Positions 12,806 through 55,479 of a DNA stretch of 64,000 bases are shown here, in pieces. Each line of letters opens with the position of its first letter. Within the stretch, counting starts at the first letter, position 1. This DNA comes from Bacillaceae bacterium IKA-2. GTDB taxonomy: Bacteria > Bacillota > Bacilli > Bacillales > Anaerobacillaceae. The position numbers and the translations under genes were made by a program. The notes under the pieces are model-generated. The model saw only the letters and a program-made list of their open reading frames with translations, was not told where the DNA came from and searched no databases. The DNA lies in the NCBI GenBank assembly GCA_031761875.1, contig CP134492.1:4278001-4342000 (forward strand). The letters are read 5' to 3'.

Positions 12806-14413
12806 CTAACATAATATTTCCTTCACCTCAACCCCAGTCTTAAACACAATAGTTACCTCAACCAGTGACCTGACTATCACCTTTTCAATTAGCCTGCCAA
12901 ATAACTCACCGTCAAACTTTTCAATCGCTGTATCTTTACCCTGTAGATATTCCTTTAGTTCTTTAATTCTATCAATCTGGAGAACACGCCCTGATTCCTG
13001 CTCTTTTAGCTTTTGTCTTCTTTCTCTATAGGTATCAAGCTCTGCAGAAAGTTTTAAATATTCTTTGCTATAGACCTGTGTGTCTAATCCATTCCTTGCA
13101 TTAACACGAACCAAGATCATTAATTCTTTTTGAAGTTCTGATAACCTTACGTCTATCTGCTCCATGGTCAACACATAGGTTGAAGTTGCTAATCCCTTCT
13201 CAATATTAGCAAGCAGCTTGTTAATAAAATTATCCTTACCTGCTACCACCTTATTCATTGCCCTAACAAACGCCTTCTCAACTGCCCTCTCATGAATTGC
13301 TTGCATGGTGCAGGCTTTATTCCCGTTGTTATAATGGTTAATGCACATCCAATTCATTATTTTATACTTACCTGTTCCTGATGTTCGCCTTGTATATTTT
13401 GAACCGCAGCTATGGCAGAATAGCTTACCCGAGAAGGGGTAGTTGCTTGTGTAAGCACTCCTACCTGTTTTGGAGTAGCCTCTCAAGTTGCTACGCCTTG
13501 CAATCTCGGCTTGCACTGCTGCGAATATTTCCTTTGATACAATGCCTGGGTGGCTATCCTCTACATAATATTGCTGTGCATGACCTTTATTTATGACTCG
13601 TTTTTTGGTAAGAAAGTCAACCGTATAGGTTTTTTGAAGTAATGCATCCCCCATGTATTTCTCATTCTTTAGCATTTTAGTTAAGCTACTCTCATGCCAA
13701 TTCTTATTTCCTGCACCAGTTAATATTCCATCTGCTTCAAGGCCTCTGGCTATTTTATTACAGCCATATCCCTCCAGGTATTCTAGATAAATCCTAGTTA
13801 TAACCTCGGCTTCTTCGGGAACAATGACAAGCTCGCCAGCATCATCTTTGGTGTAACCTAGGAACCTTTTATGATTTACTCTGATTTTGCCCTCCTGAAA
13901 TCGGTAAACAATTCCTTGCGTAGTCGATTGGCTGATCGAATTACTTTCTTCTTGCGCTAGGCTTCCTAAAAGGCTTAGCATGAAATCTCCCTTGCTATCT
14001 AGTGTATTGACATTTTCTTTCTCGAAGAATACCGCTATGTTCTTCTCTTTAAGCTGGCGCGCAAAGTTTAAGCAGTCCACCGTATTCCTTGCAAATCGGC
14101 TAATTGACTTAGTGATTACCATATCAATTTTGCCCTCCATACAATGCTCGATCATGCGATTGAACTCTATACGCTTTTTCGTACTTGTTCCTGACAATCC
14201 CTCATCTGCATATATGCCAACAAAATCCCAGGCAGGGTTACTAGAGATATGTGACTGATAATGCTGAATTTGCGCCTCATAACTGTTTAATTGCTCGGCT
14301 TCATCCGTTGAAACTCTGCAATAGGCACACACTCTAGTTTTTGCTGTTGCTTCAAACCCACGCATCTGTTGAATAGGCTTTGCTGGTATTATTTCAATGT
14401 TTTTGTTTGCCAT
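12806..14413 (-). CDS. Large serine recombinase (integrase), second of a tandem pair
   Basis: This 535-aa protein has an N-terminal resolvase domain with the nucleophile motif CAYCRVSTDE (Ser in VST), then GIYADEGLSGTSTKKR and TKSISRFARNTVD. A recombinase domain and a zinc-ribbon region (CHSCGSKYTRR, then Cys residues at the MNWMCINH and KACTM segments) follow. A coiled-coil stretch leads to a C-terminal domain. Large serine recombinases integrate and excise phages and conjugative elements by concerted double-strand exchange. It lies 17 bases downstream of a paralogous recombinase. AGAAGGGAG precedes the start. Confidence 0.93.
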   Translation of the reverse strand: MANKNIEIIPAKPIQQMRGFEATAKTRVCAYCRVSTDEAEQLNSYEAQIQHYQSHISSNPAWDFVGIYADEGLSGTSTKKRIEFNRMIEHCMEGKIDMVITKSISRFARNTVDCLNFARQLKEKNIAVFFEKENVNTLDSKGDFMLSLLGSLAQEESNSISQSTTQGIVYRFQEGKIRVNHKRFLGYTKDDAGELVIVPEEAEVITRIYLEYLEGYGCNKIARGLEADGILTGAGNKNWHESSLTKMLKNEKYMGDALLQKTYTVDFLTKKRVINKGHAQQYYVEDSHPGIVSKEIFAAVQAEIARRSNLRGYSKTGRSAYTSNYPFSGKLFCHSCGSKYTRRTSGTGKYKIMNWMCINHYNNGNKACTMQAIHERAVEKAFVRAMNKVVAGKDNFINKLLANIEKGLATSTYVLTMEQIDVRLSELQKELMILVRVNARNGLDTQVYSKEYLKLSAELDTYRERRQKLKEQESGRVLQIDRIKELKEYLQGKDTAIEKFDGELFGRLIEKVIVRSLVEVTIVFKTGVEVKEILC

Positions 14414-14430
14414 ATAATAAAACTCCCTTC

Positions 14431-16050
14431 TTATACAATATCTATTCCATATTTTAACGTGTACCTCTCCTCAAGGTGCAGACCTCCCTGCAGCTGAAAA
14501 ATTAGGCACTCTCGTTCCTTCACCACGATCTTATCTACAAATGTTTCAAACAGCTCGTCACTAAATTCCTCAACCCTTTTAAGGTTATTAAGTATGGTTA
14601 TTAATCTTACTGTGTTTTGGTAACTGTCATCTTGTCTTTGCAGAATATTTTTAATTGCCATTGTTTCTTCCTGTAGTTCCTCTATTCTTTCAACTAATTC
14701 CATGTGCTCCTGCTTAAATATTTCTTTATCAACATAGCCTCTAACCTGGAGCAGAAACATCTCTCCCTCCTGCTTTAGCAACTTCGATATTTCGTCTTCG
14801 TAATCTTTTAATTTTCCACCCAACGAGGTATCATTATGGATTTCTTCAAGGCTCTGCAAATATCGATTCAGCGGTGCTTTATCTGCTATCAACCTATTTA
14901 TAATTTTTAGAAATACCCTCTTAATGGTGTCTTCCTTAAGCGTTCCAATACTGCAGGCTTTAACGCCTTTATCAATGTATGTGCCACAGGTCCAGCGATA
15001 ATTTCCTTTTCCGTTATTTGAGTTATGGATTGTTCGTTTAAAGTTTCTGCCACACCTACCGCATTCAAGCTTGCTGGTTAAGGTGTATCTTTGATTATAC
15101 TTCCAGGCTGTATCAGATGTATTTCCTTTTTCCCTCCCACGTTTTACCATAAGTTCTTGAGCTTTTTCAAACTGTTCTTTTGATATAATTGCAGGGTGGC
15201 TATCCTTAACATAATATTGAGGTGCTTCACCTTCATTCTTTTTACGCTTCAGGCTAATGGAGTTTACTGTTATAGTTTTTTGTAAGAGTGCATCCCCTGC
15301 GTATTTCTCATTTTTGAGCATTCCAAGTATTACTGAAGCACTCCAGTTTACTCCACCTGTTGTCTTTTCCACCCCATCCGATTCGAGTGCTTTTGCTATT
15401 TTAGAAGCACCAAGTCCTCCAATGTAATCCTCAAATATTCTGCGGACGATTTTAGCCTGCTCTTCATTTATAACAAGGTTACCGTTATCATCTTTGTCAT
15501 AACCCATAAAACGCCCAGTGCAAACCTGCACCTTTCCTTGGCTAAACTGCCTGGTAATACTCCACTTCATATTTTGAGATGCGGATAACAACTCTGCCTC
15601 TGCCACTGAACTTAGTATTGAAAGCATTAACTCACTCTCAGCGTTTAATGTGTTTATCTTCTCTTTCTCAAAATACACTCCTACATTTAGTCCTTTTAGA
15701 TGTCTTATCGTTCCTATGCATTCAGAGGTATTTCTTGCAAAGCGACTGATTGATTTGGTGAGTATAAGGTCAAATTTATCGTTTTCAGCATCCTTTATCA
15801 TCCGTAAAAATTCAGTCCGCTGCTTTTTCCCCTTGCCCGATATACCTTCATCAGCATAAATGCCTGCAAACTCCCATTCAAGATTGTTTTTAATATAAGA
15901 AGTGTAATGATCCATCTGTGCATCAAGGGATTCTTTTTGTAAAAGATGATGCGTTGATACTCTGCAATAAGCACAAATCCTTTGCTTTTGAATCCGTTTG
16001 CCAAATTCATTAAAACCCTTGTTGGCTTTAATGGTAGATATTTTCTTCAT
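14431..16050 (-). CDS. Large serine recombinase (integrase), first of a tandem pair
   Basis: This 539-aa protein has the same order of domains as its neighbour: resolvase domain (CAYCRVSTHH, YADEGISGKGKKQRTEF, SISRFARNTSE), recombinase domain, zinc ribbon (CGRCGRNFKR and later Cys) and a coiled-coil C-terminus. The start at 16050 follows AAAGGAG at good spacing; a longer frame begins at 16083. The two proteins are clearly homologous but divergent, so this is an old tandem pair and not a recent duplication. They may act together or have different att preferences. Confidence 0.93.
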   Translation of the reverse strand: MKKISTIKANKGFNEFGKRIQKQRICAYCRVSTHHLLQKESLDAQMDHYTSYIKNNLEWEFAGIYADEGISGKGKKQRTEFLRMIKDAENDKFDLILTKSISRFARNTSECIGTIRHLKGLNVGVYFEKEKINTLNAESELMLSILSSVAEAELLSASQNMKWSITRQFSQGKVQVCTGRFMGYDKDDNGNLVINEEQAKIVRRIFEDYIGGLGASKIAKALESDGVEKTTGGVNWSASVILGMLKNEKYAGDALLQKTITVNSISLKRKKNEGEAPQYYVKDSHPAIISKEQFEKAQELMVKRGREKGNTSDTAWKYNQRYTLTSKLECGRCGRNFKRTIHNSNNGKGNYRWTCGTYIDKGVKACSIGTLKEDTIKRVFLKIINRLIADKAPLNRYLQSLEEIHNDTSLGGKLKDYEDEISKLLKQEGEMFLLQVRGYVDKEIFKQEHMELVERIEELQEETMAIKNILQRQDDSYQNTVRLITILNNLKRVEEFSDELFETFVDKIVVKERECLIFQLQGGLHLEERYTLKYGIDIV

Positions 16051-16114
16051 GTGTTTCTCCTTTCCGTCCCAGCCTACGCTCATAATTCTGCGTGCTTGGG
16101 AACATATTTGATGT

Positions 16115-16347: not shown

Positions 16348-17070
16348 TTAATCGTATTTGATAAAGGCATCAAAGCCTGCTGCTTTTACCTTCTTAAGCA
16401 TTGCTTCCGCATTTGCTTTTTGTGAATATGCCCCAACCTGAACACGATAATATCGCGGTGAGGTAACTGGAGTAGGTGTTACTTCCGGTATTTTCTTTTT
16501 AGAAATCCCAAAGGTTTTAGTTAATGCGTTTACATAGGCTCTTGCAATTGAATCTTTACTATTAATAATCCACTGCGCCACCTGTGCATTATCATGAAAA
16601 TCTGTTTCTGCTAAAACTGTAATGAGTCCATACTGGTTAGGCGTTCTTATCTCGCCGTAACCTTGTCCGTTAAAAGGGAGCATTCCATTTGCCACAGGCG
16701 TGGATCTGTTGGATCTTATCGGGCAGATGGCATTGAGCTCCTTTACGATATTTGATGCAAGATTCTTAGATTCGGCACTGCTTGGGTGATAAAAGGCTAC
16801 TGCTCCGCTCGCCTTGCCGCCGCCACCTGCGTTGGAGTGAATGGCAAGATAGATACTGCATCCTTTGTCCTTGGCCTCTTTAGGCCTCCCATCCGACCCT
16901 ATACCAAGGGATATAGTTGCCATCACTGTTTCGCAATCATACTCCGCATCAAGCATCACCTTAATACGCTTTGCAACATCTTCCATTTGTACTTTTTCAT
17001 TGGTGTTGCCCACAACATAGCTATTGGCTGGCTGATTGCTTGGGGATAAATATATCTTCTTATTTGCCAT
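16348..17070 (-). CDS. Phage endolysin: N-acetylmuramoyl-L-alanine amidase with SPOR domain
   Basis: This 240-aa protein has an Amidase_3 zinc-amidase domain (residues 1-170). A zinc-ligand histidine lies in YLAIHSNAGGGG and a catalytic glutamate in VLAETDFHDN; the usual N-terminal H-E pair is replaced by SPSNQPANSY, typical of a phage subgroup. A C-terminal SPOR repeat (YYRVQVGAYSQKANAEAML) should bind denuded glycan. The start at 17070 has GGTGGTGAG upstream. The gene overlaps the holin gene by 11 bases, a classical lysis cassette. Confidence 0.9.
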   Translation of the reverse strand: MANKKIYLSPSNQPANSYVVGNTNEKVQMEDVAKRIKVMLDAEYDCETVMATISLGIGSDGRPKEAKDKGCSIYLAIHSNAGGGGKASGAVAFYHPSSAESKNLASNIVKELNAICPIRSNRSTPVANGMLPFNGQGYGEIRTPNQYGLITVLAETDFHDNAQVAQWIINSKDSIARAYVNALTKTFGISKKKIPEVTPTPVTSPRYYRVQVGAYSQKANAEAMLKKVKAAGFDAFIKYD

Positions 17071-17473
17071 TTTTCTCACCACCTTCATTAAGCTGAGCAA
17101 GAATATCTTTTAACTTCTCAGGTATTGGAAGACCAATTCGTGAAGCATTCTCTAAAATACTGATTCCCTCATTTGATAAATAGAAGAAAATAACTGCTGT
17201 GCGAATTACGCCACCATTCTTTATAATTTGGCTGTCAATGATATGTCCAATGGCTACCAGTGTGAAGATAAGCACCTTTTTAAATATGCCCTTTGCTCCC
17301 ACCTCACTGGAGAGCCTTTTTTCAATGATTGCAAGCATAACCCCTGTAATATAATCAATAACTACAAAAGCAACCAGCGCATAAAGAAACCCATCTAAGC
17401 CTCCTAGAAACCATCCAAGCCATCCGCCTATTGCAGCAATCGCATACTGAATATTAGTCCATAACATTTTCAT
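17060..17473 (-). CDS. Phage holin (TcdE/BlyA, phage_holin_4 family)
   Basis: This 137-aa protein has four hydrophobic segments including FLYALVAFVVIDYITGVMLA, followed by the family-typical RLSSEVGAKGIFKKVLIFT. Holins of this family form the membrane lesions that release endolysin. It lies immediately upstream of and overlaps the amidase gene. A terminator separates it from the tail genes. Confidence 0.92.
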   Translation of the reverse strand: MKMLWTNIQYAIAAIGGWLGWFLGGLDGFLYALVAFVVIDYITGVMLAIIEKRLSSEVGAKGIFKKVLIFTLVAIGHIIDSQIIKNGGVIRTAVIFFYLSNEGISILENASRIGLPIPEKLKDILAQLNEGGEKNGK

Positions 17474-17560: not shown

Positions 17561-20029
17561 TTATATTTGTTTAGGCATTGCATCCCAAAGCCTTAAATCT
17601 TCTTGCCCTAGTGACCAGATAGCTATCCCTCGCAATTTCCACCGGTAGGCGGCTTCATTTGCCCAATAAACCAAGCTGTCTACATCCTGATAATAAAGGA
17701 TAGAGAAGCCTTGAGCATCTCCTAAAAACAACCTTGAAAGCCACACATTAATATCTCTTGGCACAATCTTAAGCGGATAGTCATTGCCACAAACTAGCGG
17801 AAGCGTTACGGTATGGTAAAAATCATAGTCAAGGCTAATTGTATCCGCTCTTGTTTCACTTTCCTCTATATCACTGGTTACTGTGAGTACATTAAACTCA
17901 CTATCCCAAGTAATATTGGAGCGTGGAAGCCTTCCGAAATTTACAGTTTGACCACTTGGAAGTTCTACATCAAAGGATTCATAAGGTTCATAGACCCAAG
18001 CATCACCGAGTCTTAATAGTTCACACTTAATCGGATTATCAGAACGTATCCCTACCCTTCCAGTGCCTGCTGATACTGTTGCAGTAAATCTAAGCAGATT
18101 GCTGGCACCCGAATAAATTCTGATTTTATTACCTCGCTTTCGCATCTCTATGGTGTACATATTAGGATTTTTTCTAATATCACTGTTCGGTGTCTTTGAA
18201 AAACTAGTGCTATAGCTTCCTAGTAGATTTGCACCCTGATAAAGTTCCACCCGTTGTGTGCTGAAATTTAAACAGCAGAATATATCCCCAAAGAACAATC
18301 CTGCTCTGCCACCGCCATTTTCGGGGAAAGCAATCTTAGCTCTTACATGTATATCCGTAAACCCATCATACTTAACTGACAGTCTCCCTTGCCCCTCTAG
18401 CTGGGAATAGGGTCTGCTTGAGCCACTATCTGCATCCCTCCATACTGTCCATGTTCCTTCCAAAGTTTCATAGTAGCTGCTAGGCAACTGCGCATAATCT
18501 CTAAAGTCCTCATATAAAACCAAAGCACTGTCTGCTTTTCTTCTAAGAACCTCCAGCGTTAATTTAAAGCCGCTGACCGGCTCCGTCATATTGCCATTTA
18601 CATCTTTAAACCTTCTTGGCGATAAAGAATACAAAGCTTCCCCTGTAAAGGGTCTCTCTGAAAAAGAACTACAAACCCTAAACCCATAAAACTGCACTCC
18701 AGGAACGCCACCACTGATTGTTATAGTATGTTGGCCTGCAGATAAGAACACGTTCTTGGAAAGAATCCTCCAGTAGATTTTTCGCCAATAGGGCCACCAT
18801 AACCTATTTTCATTTATGTTGAAGGCCTGCTCATCAAGGGATATATTAATACTGTTTTTATCCCAAAAAGGGAAACTTAGACGCACAGCTACGTCATAAT
18901 AACCTGCTTGTGAAACCTCAAACTCATAACTTGCCGTTGCGGTTTCCTCGGCTAAATATGCCATATTGGTTGTCACTATCACATCACCTTCAAAGCTGTC
19001 TGGGACACCATTTCGATCTATATAAGTAGAGCCAAATTCTACTTTTTGATCTTTACTATAAGAAGTTAAATACCGTCTTCCCTTGTAGGTTTCACGCACC
19101 AAGGGATACGCTTGTGGTTGTGAAACATCCCATCCTTCCATATAATCGTAAACATGTGGCAATGCCCATGGCACTTTATTTACATCATCCCAATAAGCTA
19201 CAAATGGGATGAATGGTTGAGGTGGTGCATCCCCTGTGAAATTATACACGCCAGTCATCCAGTACTTAGCTGCATAGTAAGTATTAGAGGTGCCTCGATA
19301 AGTCTTTCCTAGATTCTGTGGTGTGTCATGAATCTGCCAATTCCAACCGTAGGCCGGAAGCCCAAAGAATATTTTATCTGGATTCATCGCTGTTATTGCA
19401 TAATCATAGGTGCCTTCTAGCCAATCCCTAGGAGATATAGATCCAGGAGCTGAACCAGCCCATGCCATCCCGTAGCTCATGATTGCGGCAGTATCACAGT
19501 AATTATTGAGATCAGCATATACGCACCAGTTTTCTCCACCCACCGATCCACCTACACTGGTCATGCCAGGCAGGCAAATATTAACCAAGAGACTGCTTTG
19601 TTTCACTTTAACTGCAGAATAAATTCTTGAAAAAAGAGCGTTCGCTGCATCTTTGTTTTCATATCCACCACCACGTTCTAAATCAATGTCCACACCAGCG
19701 CACCATGGATACTTATTTATAATGCGTATAATTTCCGAGATGAACATATCCTGTGCTCCATTTGTGTTGTTACGCAAAGAAGTAAATATACCTGCTGTTC
19801 CATGGTTCATAATCGTTAAAAGCCATTTGATATGTTTCCACTTCCCTATGTAAGGGAGCATATTACTGATGCTGGTACCCGTTTCTGTTATTTTTCCTGC
19901 GCCATCCACCTCAAAGGTGAATATGCCTACGGTCTCTAACCGGTCACCATATTTATTCAAAGCTTCATACATTCTTGCATTGCCCATGAAGCTCCAGATC
20001 ATCACTTTTCTACCTTTAAGTAAGTCCAT
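17561..20029 (-). CDS. Tail-associated protein with a GH18 catalytic domain split by a large insertion
   Basis: This 822-aa protein begins with a GH18 barrel. The catalytic motif GVDIDLE is intact (D114, D116, E118), as are the MSYG segment (about 184-187) and GLPAYGWNW (about 223-231). The final barrel strand appears only at the C-terminus (RGIAIWSLGQEDLRLW, about residue 800). Between them lie about 440 residues of beta-rich sequence looking like two carbohydrate-binding or jelly-roll modules (about 310-450 and 500-690). Position after the tail-tip genes and before the holin suggests a virion depolymerase or adhesin acting on GlcNAc-containing cell-wall polymers. The substrate is inferred. 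Confidence 0.8.
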   Translation of the reverse strand: MDLLKGRKVMIWSFMGNARMYEALNKYGDRLETVGIFTFEVDGAGKITETGTSISNMLPYIGKWKHIKWLLTIMNHGTAGIFTSLRNNTNGAQDMFISEIIRIINKYPWCAGVDIDLERGGGYENKDAANALFSRIYSAVKVKQSSLLVNICLPGMTSVGGSVGGENWCVYADLNNYCDTAAIMSYGMAWAGSAPGSISPRDWLEGTYDYAITAMNPDKIFFGLPAYGWNWQIHDTPQNLGKTYRGTSNTYYAAKYWMTGVYNFTGDAPPQPFIPFVAYWDDVNKVPWALPHVYDYMEGWDVSQPQAYPLVRETYKGRRYLTSYSKDQKVEFGSTYIDRNGVPDSFEGDVIVTTNMAYLAEETATASYEFEVSQAGYYDVAVRLSFPFWDKNSINISLDEQAFNINENRLWWPYWRKIYWRILSKNVFLSAGQHTITISGGVPGVQFYGFRVCSSFSERPFTGEALYSLSPRRFKDVNGNMTEPVSGFKLTLEVLRRKADSALVLYEDFRDYAQLPSSYYETLEGTWTVWRDADSGSSRPYSQLEGQGRLSVKYDGFTDIHVRAKIAFPENGGGRAGLFFGDIFCCLNFSTQRVELYQGANLLGSYSTSFSKTPNSDIRKNPNMYTIEMRKRGNKIRIYSGASNLLRFTATVSAGTGRVGIRSDNPIKCELLRLGDAWVYEPYESFDVELPSGQTVNFGRLPRSNITWDSEFNVLTVTSDIEESETRADTISLDYDFYHTVTLPLVCGNDYPLKIVPRDINVWLSRLFLGDAQGFSILYYQDVDSLVYWANEAAYRWKLRGIAIWSLGQEDLRLWDAMPKQI

Positions 20030-20604
20030 TAGATATATTCACCCCCCTCCATAGTCTCCTGAAATTCAAAGAGTACCCTAGCTGACTTTCTTTCCTGTAA
20101 TTGTATATTATGTTTGCTATCTCCTGAAGCTGTGTATTGATAGAAACCATCTTTTAGAGTAGGAATTCCATTTTTCTTGCAGCTTCTATTACTCGCCATT
20201 AGTGCAAGTTCATTCTCTGCGGATGCAGCATCCAAAAATGTAACCATATGAGATCCAGCACCTTGAGAGAGCGCAATCGAACCTGCCTCCATACTTTGTA
20301 TTGGATATAGCCTACAATCAAGTCCTGCTGAAAGCTTTCCTGTATTTAATAAAATAATAGTAGCTCCTGTTCTAACAATCCCGTTATAGTGTCTTGGGTT
20401 TGACACCATACCTTCTTCCCTAAAGTTTAAAAGCATCTCCTTGGTGTTTTTTGTATATCCTGTAAGTCGATCACCCTCCTGAGCCTGGATATCAGTAAAA
20501 TAAATCTTTCCTGTAGCATCTGTAATGTTAAGCGTTACGGTAACACTTATGACCTTTTTATCACTCTTAGTTTCTATCGTTTCTGCAAACCTTATAAAGT
20601 TCAT
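20029..20604 (-). CDS. Phage tail-region protein of unknown function, paralogous N-terminal domain
   Basis: This 191-aa protein (ATG at 20604; an upstream GTG at 20613 is also in frame) lies between the tail protein and the GH18 protein. Its N-terminal 60 residues (SVTVTLNITDATGKIYFTDI) closely resemble the 64-aa protein encoded just upstream (SIMLRLFISDCTGTIYFTDV). The remaining residues have no recognised motif. The start overlaps the GH18 gene's upstream context tightly, suggesting co-expression. Probably a minor tail or baseplate component. Confidence 0.65.
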   Translation of the reverse strand: MNFIRFAETIETKSDKKVISVTVTLNITDATGKIYFTDIQAQEGDRLTGYTKNTKEMLLNFREEGMVSNPRHYNGIVRTGATIILLNTGKLSAGLDCRLYPIQSMEAGSIALSQGAGSHMVTFLDAASAENELALMASNRSCKKNGIPTLKDGFYQYTASGDSKHNIQLQERKSARVLFEFQETMEGGEYI

Positions 20605-20613
20605 ATGCTGCAC

Positions 20614-20808
20614 CTACCCATCCATCGTCCATTTAATTTCTGATACATGCCCCACCCATCCTGTAGCCACTTTGCCAGCTTGAACGAATACATCTGTAAA
20701 ATATATAGTTCCAGTGCAATCAGAAATAAATAGGCGAAGCATGATGCTTTTTACCCTTTTAGAACTCTTTGGTGAAATATCATGAGCCACTTGATTAAAA
20801 TAAGCCAT
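20614..20808 (-). CDS. 64-aa tail-region protein, single copy of a small repeated domain
   Basis: The whole protein corresponds to the N-terminal domain of the next gene (FTDVFVQAGKVATGWVGH versus FTDIQAQEGDRLTGYTKN). A strong ribosome site GGGGGTAATGC precedes it. It is best read as a tandem duplication of a small tail-decorating or connecting module. Function unknown. Confidence 0.6.
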   Translation of the reverse strand: MAYFNQVAHDISPKSSKRVKSIMLRLFISDCTGTIYFTDVFVQAGKVATGWVGHVSEIKWTMDG

Positions 20809-20821
20809 ACAGCATTACCCC

Positions 20822-23341
20822 CTAAAATAAATCAATAAAGCGCGTTTCAGTTGTACCATCCTCATACTCAATGACCACCTCAATGCCAATTTGTCCGTTC
20901 GTACCCTTTTGTAAATTCTCTGAAGCAATCTGTGTTGAAAAGGTATAGTTTTTTCTGGTTGCAGGGTGGATGGTCTGTGATAAACTTTTTGTTATACCAA
21001 GTATACCTGTTGCTTTAAATGATGCATCGCCCGACATACCATTTGCTGTGTCTAATTCAAAACCTGAGTTCACCCAATATAAAAATCCATCATCGCCACG
21101 GGAATTAAGAAGATGATTAAATGGCACTAAATCTTTTATTTCCTGTCGATCAAGCAAATCCGCTGATGACAAGGAATCTGCTGCTTTATCCCACTGCGCC
21201 GAGGCATCGCCCAGTTCACGTATCTTTGTAGATAATTCTAGTACTGTTCTCCAGGGCTCCTGAAGATTATATTGCCTGCGGATAATTCTAGTTTTTATAG
21301 TTAAGTTAAGCTCACTGTCATGGACAGTTACTATATCACCAAGCTTCCACGCTTCATGCTCCCATCCAGTTAAAACGGATAAATCCATCGCTGAGAGGAC
21401 ATAGGAAATTCTAGGCTTTGCATATTCTGCAAGCCGCATCTGTGTAAACTCTAGCATCTGGTACGGGTTACTAAAGCTACTGCAATCTAGAGTTGAAACC
21501 CTTGTTTCGCTGCTATAGCTATAATCTTCTATATACGCATTACCCCCATTGATACCGGCAAAAGTCATGCCATCTTTCCCATAAGCATAAAGCTTTGTTA
21601 TAAGCCCTCTTGTATCAACTACACGCTTTATGCTTTTCATGTTCTTCTTATAAGCAAACAAGGCTCCACTATCTAATCCACTAAAGGCTAAAAGATGAAC
21701 TAGCTTATTGGTGCTATCAAATACAAGGTCACCACCATAAATATTTTGTATTGCTCGTAAAATAGAAAGGGTATTTTTCTCGGTAGACTGCCATGTCCTT
21801 TTGGTTGTGACCGTAATCTGCCCTACTGACCATCCTGTATTTTGCAGTGCATATATCATAGGGTAACTAGCTGCTTGTGCATTAAAGTCCTGAGGTAGCT
21901 TATCTTCACTAAAAGCCAAATCATAAAAAGACGCTTCCGCATATACCTGTGTTATCACTTTACCGTCTACACTTTTTTCATCTGAGATGGTTCGAATGCG
22001 GTAGATATCTTTCACAATCTGTACCAATTTTTCATTTGTAAGACTGATTCTTTTCTCATCATGAAATGGGATCTTAAACTCTAGAATATCCGAACCATTG
22101 ATTTCACTGGTGACCATAATATCAAAGGCATTTTCAAGGACGGACTCCCATGCACCACTGCTTGCGAGCACAACCGGTCTTGCAAAACCTAACTTTTCAT
22201 AAGGCGATTTTGGAATATCATGAAGTTGAATATCAACTAGCTTAGGCGTTTTTGTTATATCCGTTGTCGTTAGCGTCACCTTAAATTTTATATACTGCTT
22301 ATTGGGGGAGTTTAGTTCACCACTGTCTCCAATTACCTGCCATACAGACCAGTTCAGTAGATCATCACTGGTAGAAGTTTCAATATTTGAAATAGCAGTT
22401 ACTCCTGCTGTGTATTCGCTCGTAACGGACACTCTACCATTTCCTGCTAAATTGCAATCCACTGCCTTGGTATAAAGTGTGCCACTGAAAGGATAATTCC
22501 CACTTAGTTCTTTGAGCCTCACTGCTCCAGGATCTGTAAGAGCATCAACCCCTGCTGCTATATCTGCTCCATTGGCAAACTGTGTGGTTAAAAAATATTC
22601 TCTCAAATCTTCTATACTAAGATCAGTTGCTGTTTCAAAAAAAAGATCATCAATACCTCCAGCGAAGTAATATTGATTGGCATGCATACACATAACAATA
22701 TCCGCAGTGCAACTTTGATTAATTATCCCCGTAAAATTTCTAATTGGACTTATCCATGTGGCACCATCACTTCTATCACAGACAATATTTTGAACGGTAT
22801 TGCTTTGCACATTAATAACTGAGCCAATAAAGTACCATCCTCCATTTTTCAATATAATTGTCGGTGTTTCTGTTTGATCATAAATGAGCGTGCCTGATGC
22901 ATTGTAGAGCATAAGTCTATATCTTCCTTGATAAAGAGAGATATAAAAAATAGGATTCCCCGGGCCTTGTCTTGTATTAAATAAGGGGATAAAGTTTTGC
23001 CCTATGGAATAGGTAGTAGGATTCACCCATCCCCCTACTACAATCTTCTCCCCCAAGGAACTAAAAAAGCTACCGTCATTGGTAGCCACAAGATAGTTCT
23101 TTTCTGTTGTAGGATTTACTACATTAACCCTTAAATATCTACCAAGTTTTCCACTTTGCATACTAGCGGAGGTGCCTGAAGCATTCATAATTTGAACGTG
23201 TCTGTTCTTTCCGGACAAATCCGCCAAATAACCTGCTTCAAGATTTGCTTCATTCAGCTTCCAAAGGGCAGATATATTACTTCGTTTAGGAAATTCCCCT
23301 GTGAAATCCTCCTGCGTTGTTACGATTGATTTTACTGCCAC
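20822..23341 (-). CDS. Tail-associated structural protein (prophage tail/tail-tip) with a LamG-like N-terminal domain
   Basis: This 839-aa protein has an N-terminal concanavalin-like (LamG) region (about residues 25-250). A central phage minor-structural/tail endopeptidase-type region follows (about 380-700), recognised from MVTSEINGSDILEFKIPF, LVQIVKDIYRIRTIS and GDIVTVHDSELNLTIKTRI. It follows Dit, the usual place of the tail-associated lysin/hub. The LamG part could bind surface glycans. No obvious peptidoglycan-hydrolase motif is seen. Confidence 0.85.
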   Translation of the reverse strand: MAVKSIVTTQEDFTGEFPKRSNISALWKLNEANLEAGYLADLSGKNRHVQIMNASGTSASMQSGKLGRYLRVNVVNPTTEKNYLVATNDGSFFSSLGEKIVVGGWVNPTTYSIGQNFIPLFNTRQGPGNPIFYISLYQGRYRLMLYNASGTLIYDQTETPTIILKNGGWYFIGSVINVQSNTVQNIVCDRSDGATWISPIRNFTGIINQSCTADIVMCMHANQYYFAGGIDDLFFETATDLSIEDLREYFLTTQFANGADIAAGVDALTDPGAVRLKELSGNYPFSGTLYTKAVDCNLAGNGRVSVTSEYTAGVTAISNIETSTSDDLLNWSVWQVIGDSGELNSPNKQYIKFKVTLTTTDITKTPKLVDIQLHDIPKSPYEKLGFARPVVLASSGAWESVLENAFDIMVTSEINGSDILEFKIPFHDEKRISLTNEKLVQIVKDIYRIRTISDEKSVDGKVITQVYAEASFYDLAFSEDKLPQDFNAQAASYPMIYALQNTGWSVGQITVTTKRTWQSTEKNTLSILRAIQNIYGGDLVFDSTNKLVHLLAFSGLDSGALFAYKKNMKSIKRVVDTRGLITKLYAYGKDGMTFAGINGGNAYIEDYSYSSETRVSTLDCSSFSNPYQMLEFTQMRLAEYAKPRISYVLSAMDLSVLTGWEHEAWKLGDIVTVHDSELNLTIKTRIIRRQYNLQEPWRTVLELSTKIRELGDASAQWDKAADSLSSADLLDRQEIKDLVPFNHLLNSRGDDGFLYWVNSGFELDTANGMSGDASFKATGILGITKSLSQTIHPATRKNYTFSTQIASENLQKGTNGQIGIEVVIEYEDGTTETRFIDLF

Positions 23342-23347
23342 CTTTCA

Positions 23348-24127
23348 TCACCTCCATCTGCTTTTGCTACTAATTTTCAGTTCTGTAAATGTTGCATTTT
23401 GAGATGAAATTATCACCTCATTTATACCGGCTTTCAGCATGGGAAAATTCAACTCTTGTAAATGAGGGAGTCCATTTCTCAAGGTGTTTCCTAAACTATC
23501 CACCACCTTAGCGGTTACTTTGCCGGTATCAATAATAAGACTTTCTCCTACTCCTAAACTGCCGATGATTTTAAGTTCTTGACCATTTGTGGTTATACTG
23601 ACATATTTCTCTGTTCCTACTGTTATGACACCTTTTAAGGTATAGAGAGGTTCCGAATCAGCATTTCCTTTTAATCGTTCTATACTGTGTGTTCCAGCTA
23701 GTGAAATAATAAAGCTTTCATCGATTAGTGCATAAGCAAAGGGATCTGGACAGATAAAATTTAATGTAAAGGCACCTGACGTTCTTAGGATTCTATCACA
23801 ATCGATGGCTTCTGATATTCTTGCAAGAAAGTATCTATCCGGTACATCATCAAGTAATAGTTGCTTTAATCCATTCCCTGGGCTTAACCAACTGCTGACT
23901 CTGTCTAAAACATTTACCAAATCAGCAAAGTTCTTCTGAGGAAAGATGTTACAGCTCACAGCAATTTTGCGTTCCATACTATCTGACCCAAAATCAGCAA
24001 TTCCAGCTTTGCCAGGCACTATCTCATAGAAGTTCCTAAGAGGTGGTGACGCTTGCCAATTTGTAATTCTTGCTTTTATGTTGATACTCTGTGAGGTTAT
24101 GCCATTAAACGAAAATCCCATTTTCAC
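23348..24127 (-). CDS. Distal tail protein (Dit)
   Basis: This 259-aa protein has the siphovirus tail component signature: MGFSFNGITSQSINIKARIT at the N-terminus and RDxxFxA-like FALIDESFIIS around position 130. Dit forms the hub linking the tail tube to the tip complex. It lies between the tape-measure gene and the tail-tip protein, the conserved order in Gram-positive siphoviruses. Confidence 0.88.
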   Translation of the reverse strand: MKMGFSFNGITSQSINIKARITNWQASPPLRNFYEIVPGKAGIADFGSDSMERKIAVSCNIFPQKNFADLVNVLDRVSSWLSPGNGLKQLLLDDVPDRYFLARISEAIDCDRILRTSGAFTLNFICPDPFAYALIDESFIISLAGTHSIERLKGNADSEPLYTLKGVITVGTEKYVSITTNGQELKIIGSLGVGESLIIDTGKVTAKVVDSLGNTLRNGLPHLQELNFPMLKAGINEVIISSQNATFTELKISSKSRWR

Positions 24128-24135
24128 CGCCCCCT

Positions 24136-26430
24136 TTACGCTGGATTAAATCTTCCCTGAGCTCTTGATCCTGCTTGCATCAAATTGTATAGTTCCTGTG
24201 AAACCTTACGAATATCATCTTCAGAACGAACAATCATTTGCTGTACCATAACAAGCGGACTATTTCCGAAGCCAGCCGTCATATTGCCATGATTCCCATT
24301 TACATTTACATTGGAAGAAACATCAAAGTCTGTTGGAATTGCTCCTTCTATATCGTCTGAAACTTTATCCATTGCTTTATCAAAGCCAACACCTATTCCC
24401 TGTGCCATGTTATCACCAATTCCTGCAAATACAGTTGATGGTGATTTGATGCCAAGAACGCCTTTTACGCCGTTTACAATACCACCAACAAAACCAGATA
24501 TTTTATCCTTAATCCAGGTGATCATGGAAGCAATCCCATCCCAAAGACCTCTCACAATATTTTTACCTATATCAACGATGGAAAGAGCAGCTTTCCCGAT
24601 ACCTAAAATGATAGCAGAAATTATTTGAGGTAATTGTGCTACCAACTGGGGAATAGCTTTAATAAGTCCCACTGCAAGTTGTAACGTAAGCTTAATCCCC
24701 ATATCAATGATCATTGGCAGGTTATTTGTTATGAAGTTTATAATAGAAGTAATTATCTTGGGTAATGCTTCAATCAGCTTAGGAAGCGCATCGAGTAATC
24801 CTTTTGCTAACCCTTCTATTATCTTAAAAGCAGCTTCTAAAATTTTATCCATGTTATTAAGTAACACTTCAACGATAAGCAATATTGCTTCAATGATTGC
24901 TGGAATAAGCTCTGGCAGGGCATCACCAATTCCTGTGGCAAGGGCCACAATCATTAAAATTGCTCCTTCAACCAAAGCCGGAAGGTTTTCTATAATACCA
25001 TTTAATAGCGCCATCACAAGTTGAATTGCACCTTGTGTTATGGCTGGTAGTGCATCAATGAGTCCTTGCAAAAGTGTCATTACAATAGATACCGCTGCAT
25101 CAATGATGATTGGGAGATTTTCTACGATTGCACCACCAATAGACATGACAATATCAAGTCCCAGCTGAATAATTTTTGGTATGTTTTCCATAATCATGGT
25201 CACGATACCACCAACCGTCTCACCAATCACATCCGATATTTTACCCCAGTCACCACCAGCTTCATTTAATCCTCTTGTGAAATTACCAAGCAGATCAACA
25301 CCATCATCCGCTAAGAGTTGAAGCTGAGGAAGTAACACCATGCCCAGTGCATTTTTAGCGCCCTCTGCGCCACCTTTTAACCTTTGTATACTATCATCAA
25401 AGTTTCCAAGCGCAGATAGCGAATCCTCGCTCATAACGACACCCATTCGCTTAGCTTCCTCTGTTAGCTCTGCAATTCCAGCTGAGCCTTGTGCAATCAG
25501 TGGATTTAACTCCTGTGCTGATTTGCCAAAGATCTGCATGGCAAGAGCATCACGCTCAGTTTCATTTGCAATATTTCCCAAAGCATCGATGGTTTCCCAG
25601 TAAACAGTCTCACTGTCCCTTAGTTGTCCACTGCTATCTGCAACAGAAACGCCAAGTTTATCATACGCATCTGCGAATTTTGCTGAACCATCTCTGGCAC
25701 CCGACATGGCCTTAACCTGTTTTGCCATAGAACCCGTTAGTGTTTCCATAGACACGTCCACTAGCTCAGCTGCATATTTATAGGCTTGAAGGCTATCGGT
25801 TGACATCCCTGTAATAGTTGACATAGTGAGGATTTCGTCCGCATATTCAGATGCCCCAACGGACATATCGACCAGTGCCTTGCCAGCACCCACAGCAGCC
25901 GCGCCTATGGCCACCAGTGCCGCACCCATTGCCACACCGATACCTTTTAATACACCACCTAGTTTCTCAAACCGATTGCCTGCATCATCCGCTTTGCCTG
26001 CTGCGTCTATCACTCCATCACCAAACTGGTCGGCTTCTTTTTCAGCTTCATTAAACTCTTTACCTGCAGTATCAAGAGCCTTGTTATTCTCTCCCAGCTC
26101 TTTTTCCATCTTATTTAAATCTGCATTGGCATTATTAAGCTGTATCTGCCAAGCTTGTGTCCGTTTATCATTCTCCCCAAAGGAGGCGGCGGCATTTTGG
26201 AGTGCCTTTTCAAGAGTAGATACCTTGTCCTTTTGCGTGTCTATTTCTTTATTAAGCACTTGATTTCTTGCGGTTAATGCACCAATGGATTTATCCTGCT
26301 TATCAAACTGCGAGGATATTAAGTTCATCTCAGAGCCTAATACCTTAAAACTCTGATTGATGTCTCTCAGCGCGTTCTTAAATTCTTTTTCACCTTCAAC
26401 ACCGATTTTGAGTCCAAAATTATCTGCCAT
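24136..26430 (-). CDS. Phage tail tape measure protein
   Basis: This 764-aa protein starts with a long coiled coil (residues 20-140). A TMP core follows with hydrophobic helices (GVAMGAALVAIGAAAVGAG) and then an extended repetitive hydrophobic region of ALPxLI / ENLPxII units (about 400-640). By the usual ratio of about 0.15 nm per residue the tail would be around 115 nm (inference). It follows the tail chaperone genes directly. Confidence 0.95.
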   Translation of the reverse strand: MADNFGLKIGVEGEKEFKNALRDINQSFKVLGSEMNLISSQFDKQDKSIGALTARNQVLNKEIDTQKDKVSTLEKALQNAAASFGENDKRTQAWQIQLNNANADLNKMEKELGENNKALDTAGKEFNEAEKEADQFGDGVIDAAGKADDAGNRFEKLGGVLKGIGVAMGAALVAIGAAAVGAGKALVDMSVGASEYADEILTMSTITGMSTDSLQAYKYAAELVDVSMETLTGSMAKQVKAMSGARDGSAKFADAYDKLGVSVADSSGQLRDSETVYWETIDALGNIANETERDALAMQIFGKSAQELNPLIAQGSAGIAELTEEAKRMGVVMSEDSLSALGNFDDSIQRLKGGAEGAKNALGMVLLPQLQLLADDGVDLLGNFTRGLNEAGGDWGKISDVIGETVGGIVTMIMENIPKIIQLGLDIVMSIGGAIVENLPIIIDAAVSIVMTLLQGLIDALPAITQGAIQLVMALLNGIIENLPALVEGAILMIVALATGIGDALPELIPAIIEAILLIVEVLLNNMDKILEAAFKIIEGLAKGLLDALPKLIEALPKIITSIINFITNNLPMIIDMGIKLTLQLAVGLIKAIPQLVAQLPQIISAIILGIGKAALSIVDIGKNIVRGLWDGIASMITWIKDKISGFVGGIVNGVKGVLGIKSPSTVFAGIGDNMAQGIGVGFDKAMDKVSDDIEGAIPTDFDVSSNVNVNGNHGNMTAGFGNSPLVMVQQMIVRSEDDIRKVSQELYNLMQAGSRAQGRFNPA

Positions 26431-35337: not shown

Positions 35338-36105
35338 TTAGTGTATGCTTTCCTCTGTTTTTCTCTTGGCGATTGCAGTTTGCAAAGATTCCTCTGTTTT
35401 GAATGAACAGTTTCCTGTCAATCTTTCAAGAAGGATTTTTCTTTCAACCTTGTATTCTGCTCCTATCATTCCTAAGCGAAGCAGCCAGCATCTCATTGCA
35501 TATTTATCGTTCTCTACTTTCTTTTGTATAAAGCTTGTATATTTTTGTTTTATTGCCTGTGCTTCAAGCAAGGTGCTAAAGGTTAGGTATGTTTTTACCT
35601 CGTCAATTTCCATAGTGGCATTGTAGAAGTTGAAGCTGATTGTCATATTCTCAAAATCGAACTTTAGTCCGCCTGTACCGGCTTCCTTAATGCACTCTTT
35701 AAAATCCTCAGTTTCTTCAAGCCTAACAGCATTAATAATTTCAAGGAGCTTGGCAGGAAGGAGTGGTTCATTTTTATCTAGTGCTTTTTGTAAAAGGATA
35801 TCCTTACTATAAATGCTATTGACTAGATTTCTAAGACTTACCCCCGTATGCTCTCCCATGGAAATGGTAATTGTTGCATGACCCTCTGGTGTCACTTTGC
35901 TTTCTTTGAGAGATCTTAGAATATTTTCTAGTGCATTATCAATTGGAGCAGTTATCATTCCACCTCGGTCGATAACTATAGTTCCAATCTCATAAGCAAA
36001 GCTTGGTGGCCCTGCATAGGTAGCCGCTTGGTTTGTAGCTGTAGCAACTATTTGTGCTATTACTTTCCTCTCAGCTCCTATTACCTTAAAAGAATATGTT
36101 TTCAT
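35338..36105 (-). CDS. Phage protein of unknown function (virulence-related-protein type)
   Basis: This 255-aa protein begins MKTYSFKVIGAERKVIAQIV. An N-terminal half contains GPPSFAYEIGTIVIDRGGMI and a C-terminal half is helical. Similar proteins sit beside DNA methylase genes in Bacillota phages and are sometimes labelled virulence-related. I see no catalytic motif. AGGAGTACAG precedes the start. Context between terL and the ParB-methylase fusion hints at DNA metabolism or nucleotide-pool work, nothing firmer. Confidence 0.55.
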   Translation of the reverse strand: MKTYSFKVIGAERKVIAQIVATATNQAATYAGPPSFAYEIGTIVIDRGGMITAPIDNALENILRSLKESKVTPEGHATITISMGEHTGVSLRNLVNSIYSKDILLQKALDKNEPLLPAKLLEIINAVRLEETEDFKECIKEAGTGGLKFDFENMTISFNFYNATMEIDEVKTYLTFSTLLEAQAIKQKYTSFIQKKVENDKYAMRCWLLRLGMIGAEYKVERKILLERLTGNCSFKTEESLQTAIAKRKTEESIH

Positions 36106-51181: not shown

Positions 51182-54175
51182 TTACATTGATGCTAAACGC
51201 TCATGAACCATAGGGAGCAGCACGTTGTTTACGTCTTTTCTGAACTCCTCATCTTCAAGGAATTTTTCACAAAACTCTTGATTTTGGCTCATCCGGCTTA
51301 TAACGATATCCATGATGCTATTATTATAAACAATCTCAAACAAATCAAGTGGATTCTTTGCTCGTAGAACCAAGTCTTTATTGTTGGCCATATCTTGAAT
51401 AAACTGCTCAAGAACTTTATCCATTTCAGTAAAGTTTGTACCAAGCTTTTCATTTAATTTTGCGATGATTTTGGATAGTGTCTCATTATCATCCTCTACG
51501 GGAAGTCCTGCACCATGCTGCCCACCATATAATACGCCATCCTCTTTTACCAAATCAATTTTACCTTCATATACCTTTTGTAGTCGGTAATATTGGAGGA
51601 CCACATCGTTATCAAGCGAAGGTGTCTTTTCTCCCCCCTTAGGCAATTTTCTTGATAAACACTTAGCATAAGCATTAAATTTATGTAGGTTCTCATCACC
51701 TAGGCTAATAATATGAGTTAAAAAAGCATATAAGCGTACAAATTTTTGCAATGCACTTTTAAAATCTGATTTTTCTTGTTCTTCGGTGAGAGCATTAAAC
51801 CTATCCACTGCTGGGTCAATAAATGCGTTTAGTACACCCAAATCAATGTTATCCTGTTTTTTACTTTCTTTGAAGAAAACTTTAGCAAAATTCTCTATTT
51901 CTGTATTGTTATATACCATAAAGGTATCAAGTACATTTTTGATATCATATACAAGGTTTGGATCTGTAACATCATCTATCCCTGATTTTTCATAATATGG
52001 TTGGAAAGCTTTTAATATATCATCCTTATTATTGACAAAATCAAGAACAAAGGTACCATCCTTACCTTTACACATACGGTTTAATCTAGATAATGTTTGA
52101 ACAGCCTTGACACCTGATAGCTTCTTGTCTACATACATAGTATGCAATAATGGCTGGTCAAACCCTGTTTGATACTTCTCTGCAACAAGCAGCACCTGGT
52201 ACTCGCCGCTATCGAACTTTTCTGGTAACTCTGTTTCTGAAAACTTGTTTAATCCTGCTTCAGTATATTCCTGGTTGCCATCCTTAACAGTTCCAGAGAA
52301 TGCAACAAGCACTCCTAAATCCTTGTAGCCCTTCTTGTTAATGTACTTCTTAAATTCGAAGTAGTAACGAACAGCATGTAAACGAGAGCCTGTAACCAGC
52401 ATTGCCTTGGCTCTTCCACCAATCCTGTGGCGAGTTACACTTCTGAAATGCTCAACAATGATCTCTGTCTTTTGAGCTAGGTTATGATGATGCAAGCTTA
52501 AAAATTTCCCAAGTGCTTTATTGGCCTTGCTCACTGGATATTGGGGATCATCAATAATCTTCTTGCCTATTTGAAAATAGGTTTCATAGGTCGTGTAATT
52601 GGCAAGCACATCGAGAATAAACCCTTCTTCAATAGCTTGTCTCATGCTATATAAATGAAAAGCTTCTGGCAATCCCTTCGAATTCTTGACACCAAACATC
52701 TCCAGTGTCTTTGGCTTTGGTGTAGCAGTGAAGGCAAAGAATGATAAATTCTTTTGTATGCCATGTGATGCCATTTCGTTTGCGATTTCATCTTCTATAT
52801 CAGATGCTTTGCTTTCTGCCTTTTCCTCTTCCACCGCATATTGATGAAGCTTCTCCTCAATGGCATCTTCACCTTTGGACGTAATATCCGCAAGAGCCAT
52901 TTTAAGTTTTTCACTAGCTTCTCCAGACTGTGATGAATGAGCCTCATCAACTATAATGGCAAATCGCTTTCCTGAAGTATTAGCAGCTTTTCTAAGATCA
53001 ACAAATGGGAACTTTTGTAGTGTACATATAATAATCTTTATATTATTTTTTAACGCTTCAGTCAATTGAGAAGAGTTTTTATCAATCTTTTGAACAACAC
53101 CTGGTGTATGTTCAAATTGGTAGATTGTCTTTTGTAGTTGATCATCAAGCACACGTCTATCAGTGATAACAATAATACTGTTAAATATAACGGTATTATT
53201 CACGTCATGTAAACTTGCAAGGTGATGGGCAAGCCATGCAATAGAATTGCTCTTTCCTGATCCTGCAGAATGCTGTATTAGATAGTTTTTTCCACTACCA
53301 TTTTCCTCGGCATCGGTAATTAGCTTTCTAACCACATCTAGCTGATGATACCTAGGGAATAAGAGTGTTTCTTTTTTCTTACCTGTTTCTTTGTCGGGTT
53401 TTACTTCCAGATGTATAAATCGCTCTAATATATCCATCAAGCTATCTTTGGTTAAAACTTCTTCCCATAGATACGATGTGCGATAACCTCTTGAATTGGC
53501 TGGATTACCTGCACCCTTGTTATTACCTTTATTAAAAGGTAGAAATTGAGTATCCTGACCAGATAGCTTTGTCGCCATATACACTTGTTCACTGTCCACT
53601 GCAAAATGTACCAATGCACGTTTTTTAAAAGACAACAGCAAGTCCTTAGGGCTGCGATCATTCTTATATTGATAAATTGCATTTTGAAATGTTTGCCCTG
53701 TGAGTGGATTCTTAAGCTCAATAGTGATAATTGGCAGACCGTTTAAAAATATAACCGTATCAATAGAATTTTCACAGGCTAGGCTATATTTTACCTGTCT
53801 GGTTACCTTAAGTTCATTTTGCTCATAGCGTGCGACTGTTGTTTTGTTCATTGCACTTGCTGGTTTAAAGTAACAAAGGTCGATATTTATTCCTACGCCC
53901 TTAATACCATGACGTAATACATCAAGCATTCCACGATTTTTTAACTCATCGTTTAATCGAGAAAGCAATGCCTCCTCGGCTTTAACTGTATGTTTCTTGA
54001 CAATATTATCCCATTCTCTTGGTTGTGTTCTCTTAACAAAAGCTATTACTGCTTTTGTATCCATAGCTAGCGTGCGGTCAAAATCAGCAGGGTTACCACT
54101 GGCATAACTCCCATTTTGGATAAGATTATATTCCAGTTCATTTTCAAACGTTCTTTCATTAGTACTTATTGCCAT
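51182..54175 (-). CDS. hsdR: Type I restriction enzyme R subunit (HsdR)
   Basis: This 997-aa protein has an N-terminal nuclease core (LPIITIELKNPLTGQTF, the ExK of PD-ExK), helicase Walker A (LIQHSAGSGKSNSIAWLAHH), DEAH box (AIIVDEAHSSQSGEASEK) and later motifs (FAFTATPKP, LLVAEKYQTGFDQP). It cuts DNA after translocation when both strands of the target are unmethylated. The gene is intact and of normal length. It overlaps hsdS by one base, so the three subunits are co-expressed. Confidence 0.96.
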   Translation of the reverse strand: MAISTNERTFENELEYNLIQNGSYASGNPADFDRTLAMDTKAVIAFVKRTQPREWDNIVKKHTVKAEEALLSRLNDELKNRGMLDVLRHGIKGVGINIDLCYFKPASAMNKTTVARYEQNELKVTRQVKYSLACENSIDTVIFLNGLPIITIELKNPLTGQTFQNAIYQYKNDRSPKDLLLSFKKRALVHFAVDSEQVYMATKLSGQDTQFLPFNKGNNKGAGNPANSRGYRTSYLWEEVLTKDSLMDILERFIHLEVKPDKETGKKKETLLFPRYHQLDVVRKLITDAEENGSGKNYLIQHSAGSGKSNSIAWLAHHLASLHDVNNTVIFNSIIVITDRRVLDDQLQKTIYQFEHTPGVVQKIDKNSSQLTEALKNNIKIIICTLQKFPFVDLRKAANTSGKRFAIIVDEAHSSQSGEASEKLKMALADITSKGEDAIEEKLHQYAVEEEKAESKASDIEDEIANEMASHGIQKNLSFFAFTATPKPKTLEMFGVKNSKGLPEAFHLYSMRQAIEEGFILDVLANYTTYETYFQIGKKIIDDPQYPVSKANKALGKFLSLHHHNLAQKTEIIVEHFRSVTRHRIGGRAKAMLVTGSRLHAVRYYFEFKKYINKKGYKDLGVLVAFSGTVKDGNQEYTEAGLNKFSETELPEKFDSGEYQVLLVAEKYQTGFDQPLLHTMYVDKKLSGVKAVQTLSRLNRMCKGKDGTFVLDFVNNKDDILKAFQPYYEKSGIDDVTDPNLVYDIKNVLDTFMVYNNTEIENFAKVFFKESKKQDNIDLGVLNAFIDPAVDRFNALTEEQEKSDFKSALQKFVRLYAFLTHIISLGDENLHKFNAYAKCLSRKLPKGGEKTPSLDNDVVLQYYRLQKVYEGKIDLVKEDGVLYGGQHGAGLPVEDDNETLSKIIAKLNEKLGTNFTEMDKVLEQFIQDMANNKDLVLRAKNPLDLFEIVYNNSIMDIVISRMSQNQEFCEKFLEDEEFRKDVNNVLLPMVHERLASM

Positions 54176-55476
54176 TATGATAGCCCTCCCTCTGTATTAT
54201 CTTCTATTTTCACTTTTCCTGTTACAACTTCACTAACCAAAATTTTTCGGTACTCATTCAGTTTTTGTATTTGCTCAGCAACATCAGCTATTAAGTTATC
54301 AATTTTAGCAGTTTTGTGGTCAATCATTTCAACTATTTTCTGAACATTATCATTTATAGGAATATATATATTGGCAATTGTATTAGCGTTTAGATTCAGT
54401 TGAGTTCCAAGTTTTCCAAGTCCCTTATATGGAAGTTCACTTTCGAAAATGTAGTATAAATACTTAATCATACTTTGTGGTAATTTATCCATCAATACAA
54501 AGCCATCATGTATACACACATCTATTCCTGCAATACAAGGCTTTCCAACGCTTGCACAAATGCTAATAAAAAGTTGTCCAGTGTTGACTTTAACACTATT
54601 TTTTATGCCAAGATCAGATAATTTTTGTTCTGCACTTGTTAGATGCATTTTTGAATTTGTAACATCTGAAATCCTTACCCAGTATCTCTTTCCGTTATCA
54701 TCAAAGTATATTGGGTCATCTATAGGTCTTGGTGAAGCACCTCTCTTCACATGACATAAATACTTTATTTTTCTTACCTCCCACCCAACAGGTATTTCAC
54801 CAATCCACAGCACGCCACTATCTTTCATAGGCACATTTTTATTAAGACCCTTAGTAACAGCGTTACTAATAATGATTTGGCGCTTTTCTTTTAACCTTTC
54901 AATTAGCATCTTTTTATCGGCAATGATTGTGTCAATTTGTACGGTTATGAGATCAAGGTAATTTGCAATCGCTTGTTGCGTTGATAGTGGAGGAATTGGC
55001 AAAATCATATTTGCAAAATCAGTAAAAAGAATGTTTTTGCCTTCTCGTATTCCAACTGTTAGTGAATTGATTTTTTCTATAAAAGCCTCTTGTTTGAAAA
55101 GCTTTTTATAGAAGTTATGACATATTTGATATTTTCGTCTAAATACAGTATATGCAGGTGTAATTACGCCTTCATACTCAGACATTTCAAATCCACCTTG
55201 AAAGCTTCTCAAACTAATTACAAAGTCACCCGCATGAACACTTTTAAATATAGACAAGTCAGTATCTTCTTTAACCTGCACAACACCTTCCAAATTTTCC
55301 TTAGGAACAACACCATCGCTTTGAGTAGCAGACAACAACATTAGTGTATTGTTGCCTTTTTCAAAAGATTGAACAAAATGGTTTTTTGCCCTTGCCGTTT
55401 CCCATCCTTCTGGTATTTCACCTAACCAGTCAACTCCACTATCCTTATAACTTTCATATCGTTTCAAAATTCCCAC
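54175..55476 (-). CDS. hsdS: Type I specificity subunit (HsdS)
   Basis: This 433-aa protein has two target-recognition domains separated by a conserved helical region (STQQAIANYLDLITVQIDTI, with KKMLIERLKEKRQIIISNAV). The second domain starts at GEIPVGWEVRKIKYLCHVKR, echoing GEIPEGWETARAKNHFVQS in the first. It sets the bipartite DNA sequence for both methylation and restriction. It lies four bases after hsdM. Confidence 0.94.
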   Translation of the reverse strand: MGILKRYESYKDSGVDWLGEIPEGWETARAKNHFVQSFEKGNNTLMLLSATQSDGVVPKENLEGVVQVKEDTDLSIFKSVHAGDFVISLRSFQGGFEMSEYEGVITPAYTVFRRKYQICHNFYKKLFKQEAFIEKINSLTVGIREGKNILFTDFANMILPIPPLSTQQAIANYLDLITVQIDTIIADKKMLIERLKEKRQIIISNAVTKGLNKNVPMKDSGVLWIGEIPVGWEVRKIKYLCHVKRGASPRPIDDPIYFDDNGKRYWVRISDVTNSKMHLTSAEQKLSDLGIKNSVKVNTGQLFISICASVGKPCIAGIDVCIHDGFVLMDKLPQSMIKYLYYIFESELPYKGLGKLGTQLNLNANTIANIYIPINDNVQKIVEMIDHKTAKIDNLIADVAEQIQKLNEYRKILVSEVVTGKVKIEDNTEGGLS

Positions 55477-55479
55477 CCC

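Follow-up and report, generated by a model that had tools for sequence, protein, structure and literature searches.

Within a 64,000-nucleotide window of the genome of Bacillaceae bacterium IKA-2 (contig CP134492.1), a prophage tail gene encodes a protein that has the catalytic motif of GH18 enzymes near its N-terminus and what looks like the last segment of a GH18 barrel near its C-terminus. This raises the question of whether the two parts belong to one and the same barrel, interrupted by several hundred residues, and of what such a protein would do in a phage tail.

The gene and its surroundings

The gene lies on the minus strand at positions 17561–20029 of the window, where an 822-codon open reading frame is the single reading frame of the interval; the plus strand there has many stop codons. 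Translation confirms the two motifs noted in the original prediction, with DIDLE at residues 114–118 and AIWSLGQED, placed only roughly before, at residues 803–811. The protein matches phrog_3432, annotated as minor tail protein, over its full length (residues 4–822, E 0). Its GH18 assignment comes from Pfam and from a sequence search of the PDB. The Pfam model Glyco_hydro_18 covers residues 65–289 only (E 5e-13; PF00704 score 49.8 bits compared to a cut-off of 29.6), and a GH18 profile match is found in 45 of 46 family members. NCBIfam has no model for this protein. The layout of 822 residues is not a matter of chance, since 163 of the 180 distinct homologues fall into one length class of 820–839 residues.

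GH18 enzymes had been considered uncommon in tail modules, a view that the size of phrog_3432 overturns. Homologues are present in 189 phage records, 166 of which are Microbacterium phages. Within the phylum, 299 genomes were sampled, and 13 of them, IKA-2 included, have a homologue. A total of 175 genome loci pass the search; for the 80 of them that are listed, the record titles point to Bacillota or name an uncultured clade only. With the B. subtilis phage protein as query, no related loci were found among viral contigs. Across the Bacillota prophage homologues the identity is 62–74%, at near-equal length. The 822-residue protein is an ordinary member of this known and widespread phage tail family, which is common in Gram-positive prophages and mostly annotated as 'minor tail protein' or 'hypothetical protein'.

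The prophage has the order terminase, portal, protease, major head protein, tape measure, Dit and Tal. Upstream of the GH18 gene, and likewise on the minus strand, are the genes for the tape measure protein (24136–26430; phrog_58, E 4e-69), the distal tail protein Dit (23348–24127; phrog_33, E 4e-34), the Prophage_tail protein Tal (20822–23341; E 2e-72), a protein of 64 residues (20614–20808; phrog_3473) and a tail protein of 194 residues (20029–20613; phrog_12827, E 6e-76), whose end overlaps the start of the GH18 gene. Downstream, on the same strand, follow a holin (17060–17473; Phage_holin_4_1, E 1e-45) and an endolysin with Amidase_3 and SPOR domains (16348–17100; Pfam E 2e-12 and 1e-8). 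The predicted location in a tail module is borne out, as the order Dit-Tal-64aa-194aa-GH18-holin forms a conserved cassette that is kept in about 90 of 93 long GH18 loci (Tal in 92, the 64-residue protein in 92, the 194-residue protein in 91, the holin in 89 and Dit in 86). The core order, with small additions, recurs in phages of Acutalibacteraceae, B. subtilis (BSTP5), Microbacterium (Koji), Glutamicibacter (Montesquieu) and Geobacillus (TP-84).

Some other features of the window can be mentioned here. The 64-residue protein is related to the first 60 residues of the 194-residue protein (42% identity, BLASTP E 1e-12), and the two constitute a small repeated tail-tip module, whose counterpart in TP-84 has an IYFTD motif in common with them. 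Tal has about 390 residues ahead of its Prophage_tailD1/Prophage_tail domains, an unusual N-terminal extension that falls within phrog_3475. An amidoligase-like gene (35338–36105; phrog_2443, E 3e-44) is flanked by the terminase and a ParB/methyltransferase gene, two large serine recombinases stand in tandem at the prophage end (12806–16083), and the type I restriction-modification genes hsdR, hsdS-like and hsdM are found beyond the prophage replication genes (51182–57513).

The barrel and its insert

The C-terminal barrel strand is not reported by Pfam, and the split was therefore demonstrated by profile-profile alignment. For this, the family profile was compared by hhalign with one built from ordinary GH18 enzymes encoded in related host genomes. 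The default comparison ends at residue 286 and gives the N-terminal part alone. In local alignments, residues 17–269 align to host GH18 positions 189–437 (E 4e-23), and residues 771–818 align to positions 443–490 with an E-value of 0.014, which is weak when taken alone. The two segments have the same order and are adjacent in the host enzymes, so that where the phage protein has some 500 residues (270–770) the ordinary host GH18 enzymes have about five. The phrog_3432 profile gives the same picture in the host GH18 frames of several genomes, where its N-terminal and C-terminal (ca 750–805) positions are about 40 residues apart; in one of these genomes, positions 83–243 and 761–802 are separated by about 36 residues.

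Because the C-terminal segment is weak by itself, we also slid blocks of 58 residues along residues 270–822 and compared each of these 34 blocks with the host GH18 profile. Block 765–822 is the best of them, with P 5.7e-4, and the second, 750–807, overlaps it and matches the host enzymes at the same place. Among the blocks independent of these two, the best has P 0.018 and aligns over only 8 columns.

A full-length AlphaFold2 model was built from 46 sequences (pLDDT 80, pTM 0.62), in which the placement of the modules is uncertain. By residue 225, seven strands have appeared in barrel order; the last barrel-type strand comes only at residues 801–805, preceded by a helix at 783–795. Superposed on the chitinase 5jh8, a complete solved GH18 enzyme, the model gives Z 31.8 over 302 of the 317 residues of the chitinase at an rmsd of 2.6, with a model range of 4–819. 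It is important to point out that this range gives the first and last aligned residues only, and the structural alignment is for this reason read jointly with the sequence tests. The full model also returns Foldseek matches of 600–900 columns with an rmsd of about 30, which join unrelated beta domains one after another and were discarded.

In the predicted model the eight-stranded barrel is complete, divided between residues 4–269 and 771–819. The N-terminal part (residues 1–269, strands β1–β7) corresponds to 19223–20029, the C-terminal part (residues 771–822, with the last strand and the stop codon) to 17561–17719, and the insert, which would lie in the β7–β8 connection, to 17720–19222, all on the minus strand. 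The alignments and the model thus support a GH18 barrel split by about 500 residues. The original prediction had the last barrel segment near the C-terminal end, which agrees with the alignments, the block test and the strand at 801–805. Its insertion stands as well, while the size it gave, about 440 residues, has to be revised to nearer 500. Structure prediction had been proposed as a check, and a full barrel within the first 300 residues is not seen in the model. For annotation this means that the enzyme is complete only with its last 50 residues, and a 'catalytic domain' trimmed to end at residue 300 is expected to fail. The whole family has the inserted topology, which seems to be undescribed so far; no description of a split barrel was found in the open-access literature searched.

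The insert was also modelled alone, as residues 302–772 (pLDDT 84.5, pTM 0.74). Carbohydrate-binding or jelly-roll modules had been anticipated in this region, and two beta-sandwiches are indeed predicted. The first, residues 333–455 (18665–19033, minus strand), resembles the CBM35 structure 3zm8 (Z 12.6, 115 residues, rmsd 2.4). The Pfam model CBM_35 matches at 355–439 below threshold (E 0.029, 15.1 bits compared to a cut-off of 28), and it is found in 16 of 46 relatives, with E down to 3e-5 in the best of them. The second, residues 506–676 (18002–18514, minus strand), is CBM66/concanavalin-like and resembles the B. subtilis CBM66 structure 4b1m (Z 16.5, 140 of 161 residues, rmsd 1.8, 17% identity); Pfam gives no CBM66 match, either in this protein or in the 46 relatives. 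Residues 684–770 have no outstanding match. On the basis of these predicted folds, the two pieces can be regarded as putative carbohydrate-binding modules. They may lie beside the cleft, as the original prediction supposed, but the full-length model places them with uncertainty. The insert is modular, since the actinobacterial phage homologues are without the CBM35-like piece and keep the rest. Insert and whole protein appear to travel together, as 184 phage records match the former and 189 the latter.

Catalytic residues and the proposed role

The DIDLE motif (19676–19690, minus strand) is placed as a GH18 D-x-D-x-E motif should be, at the end of strand 4, and in the model it directly follows the strand formed by residues 112–116. 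In an alignment of the protein with its 180 distinct homologues, D114, D116, E118, M184, W190, W231 and W805 are invariant in all 181 sequences, and the sole variation at Y186 is one unreadable residue. The GH18 catalytic motif is thus intact, as originally noted, and this conservation is strong but indirect evidence for the predicted catalysis. Position 187 (19469–19471) is Asp in the usual GH18 MxYD motif. Here M184 and Y186 are kept and the position is Gly, as in 164 of the aligned sequences, Asp being present in 16; Gly187 marks the Bacillota branch and Asp187 the actinobacterial-phage members. This glycine could alter a substrate subsite and the specificity, and it could also weaken or change the activity.

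We consider it probable that the protein belongs to the tail tip of a siphovirus and depolymerizes glycan as the phage enters. The arguments for this are the split GH18 fold, the invariant D/D/E residues, the CBM-like folds, the tail cassette with its gene overlap, and the homology to TP84_26 of Geobacillus phage TP-84 together with the activity of that protein. In this reading the barrel would cut a host-surface polymer with β-linked N-acetylhexosamine, E118 serving as the acid/base in the substrate-assisted mechanism usual for GH18, and the modules in the β7–β8 connection would hold this polymer, anchor the enzyme to the tail tip, or do both. Presence in the virion, activity and substrate are what we infer for this protein from the above. 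A depolymerase had been raised as a possibility in the original prediction and now appears as the likely role, capsule depolymerase activity being experimental in the homologue (PMC10815759). Points that speak against this reading are the low identity to TP84_26, Glu instead of the Asp of the others at position 114 of TP84_26, Gly187 in the Bacillota branch, and the fact that TP84_26 is not among the proteomic detections of the 2018 TP-84 genome paper (PMC5889276).

Another option considered was that the substrate is peptidoglycan, the protein being a tail-associated N-acetylglucosaminidase, with an origin among the GH18 enzymes of the spore or vegetative cell wall, that opens the murein at DNA entry. 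We regard this as possible, if clearly not the expected case. SleL, a lytic enzyme of the spore cortex, and YdhD are among the closest relatives with a solved structure, and the 62–74% identity, over many Bacillota lineages, is higher than expected for a strain-specific receptor binder and suits a universal substrate. However, Tal, Dit and the holin reach about the same degree of conservation, which may therefore belong to the cassette. Moreover, the insert has CBM35- and CBM66-like folds and not LysM or SPOR wall binders, and G. stearothermophilus cells from which recombinant TP84_26 had stripped the capsules survived the treatment (PMC10815759).

It is unlikely that the protein is mainly a soluble enzyme of the release phase, clearing surface polymer around lysing cells rather than forming part of the virion. 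The holin and amidase genes do adjoin the GH18 gene, and TP84_26 occurs free in lysates, where it gives spreading halos, lysis being the role first proposed for it (PMC10131341, PMC5889276). However, in all the lineages examined the GH18 gene is coupled by gene order to genes of the tail tip, and TP84_26 is found not only free, as a tetramer in solution, but also in CsCl-purified virions (PMC10131341). The soluble and virion roles can be compatible with each other.

A lectin-like receptor binder, in which the GH18 fold would serve binding instead of catalysis, would fit the CBM-like modules and the Gly187 of most members, and catalytically dead GH18 lectins do exist, YKL-40-type proteins being among the fold matches; with three catalytic acids invariant in 181 sequences and a homologue that degrades capsules, this is highly improbable. 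Finally, hardly any weight can be given to a barrel without a split, with residues 1–320 as the whole of it and the C-terminus as a separate fold: forced global hhalign does thread the host GH18 end onto residues 270–320, but against this stand the free local alignments, which stop at 269 and restart at 771, the block test with its preference for 765–822, and the structural alignment, which reaches residue 819.

Returning to the tail-tip depolymerase, one can speculate, with a good deal of doubt, about what the topology is for. The phage tail enzymes of Bacillota and Actinobacteria could form a family with its binding platform built into the catalytic barrel and not attached at either end, in which a CBM66-like core is kept and a CBM35-like module gained or lost. 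Binding or docking of the insert could then open or close the cleft, and the target would be a conserved wall polymer and not strain-specific capsules.

Comparison with known systems

The closest biochemical reference is TP84_26, the one family member that has been tested, and for which the bond specificity was never found. It came to light only through a fold search of viral models, a literature search on GH18 in phage tails having given nothing relevant. It is homologous over the full length (3–822 to 1–982, BLASTP E 5e-40), with both barrel parts and the insert, and its predicted fold matches our model over the whole length with TMq 0.77. The gene order in TP-84 is likewise tape measure-Dit-Tal-small-tail-GH18-holin-endolysin. 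The two proteins differ in length (991 and 822 residues) and at position 187, which is Asp in TP84_26. Their identity is only about 23%, and the substrate of TP84_26 need therefore not carry over. Three nitrophenyl glucoside/glucuronide substrates were not cleaved by it (PMC10815759). The identity as a split-barrel GH18 points instead to N-acetylhexosamine polymers as candidate substrates and to E118 as the residue for mutation. The C-terminus of TP84_26 has been described as related to GH18, in a paper in which the words insertion, barrel, CBM and AlphaFold are absent (PMC10131341). A solved structure of a family member was not found, and a PDB sequence search with TP84_26 gives a weak GH18 match only.

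Compared to the PHROG 3432 'minor tail protein' of Bacillota prophages and of phages of Acutalibacteraceae, Erysipelothrix, Streptococcus and others, nothing substantial is different. The minor tail proteins of Microbacterium and Glutamicibacter phages (Koji gp23, Montesquieu MONT_28) share the split barrel, the CBM66-like region, the C-terminal part and the position in the tail cassette; they have about 33% identity to the 822-residue protein, are without the CBM35-like module and have Asp at 187. The SleL/YaaH/YdhD-type cell-wall enzymes of spore formers have the GH18 barrel fold and the catalytic motif in common with it, but they are without the 500-residue insert and lie outside tail cassettes, and the host enzymes of this type have N-terminal LysM repeats. 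A tail-tip GH18 depolymerase thus has a precedent in the capsule-stripping TP84_26.
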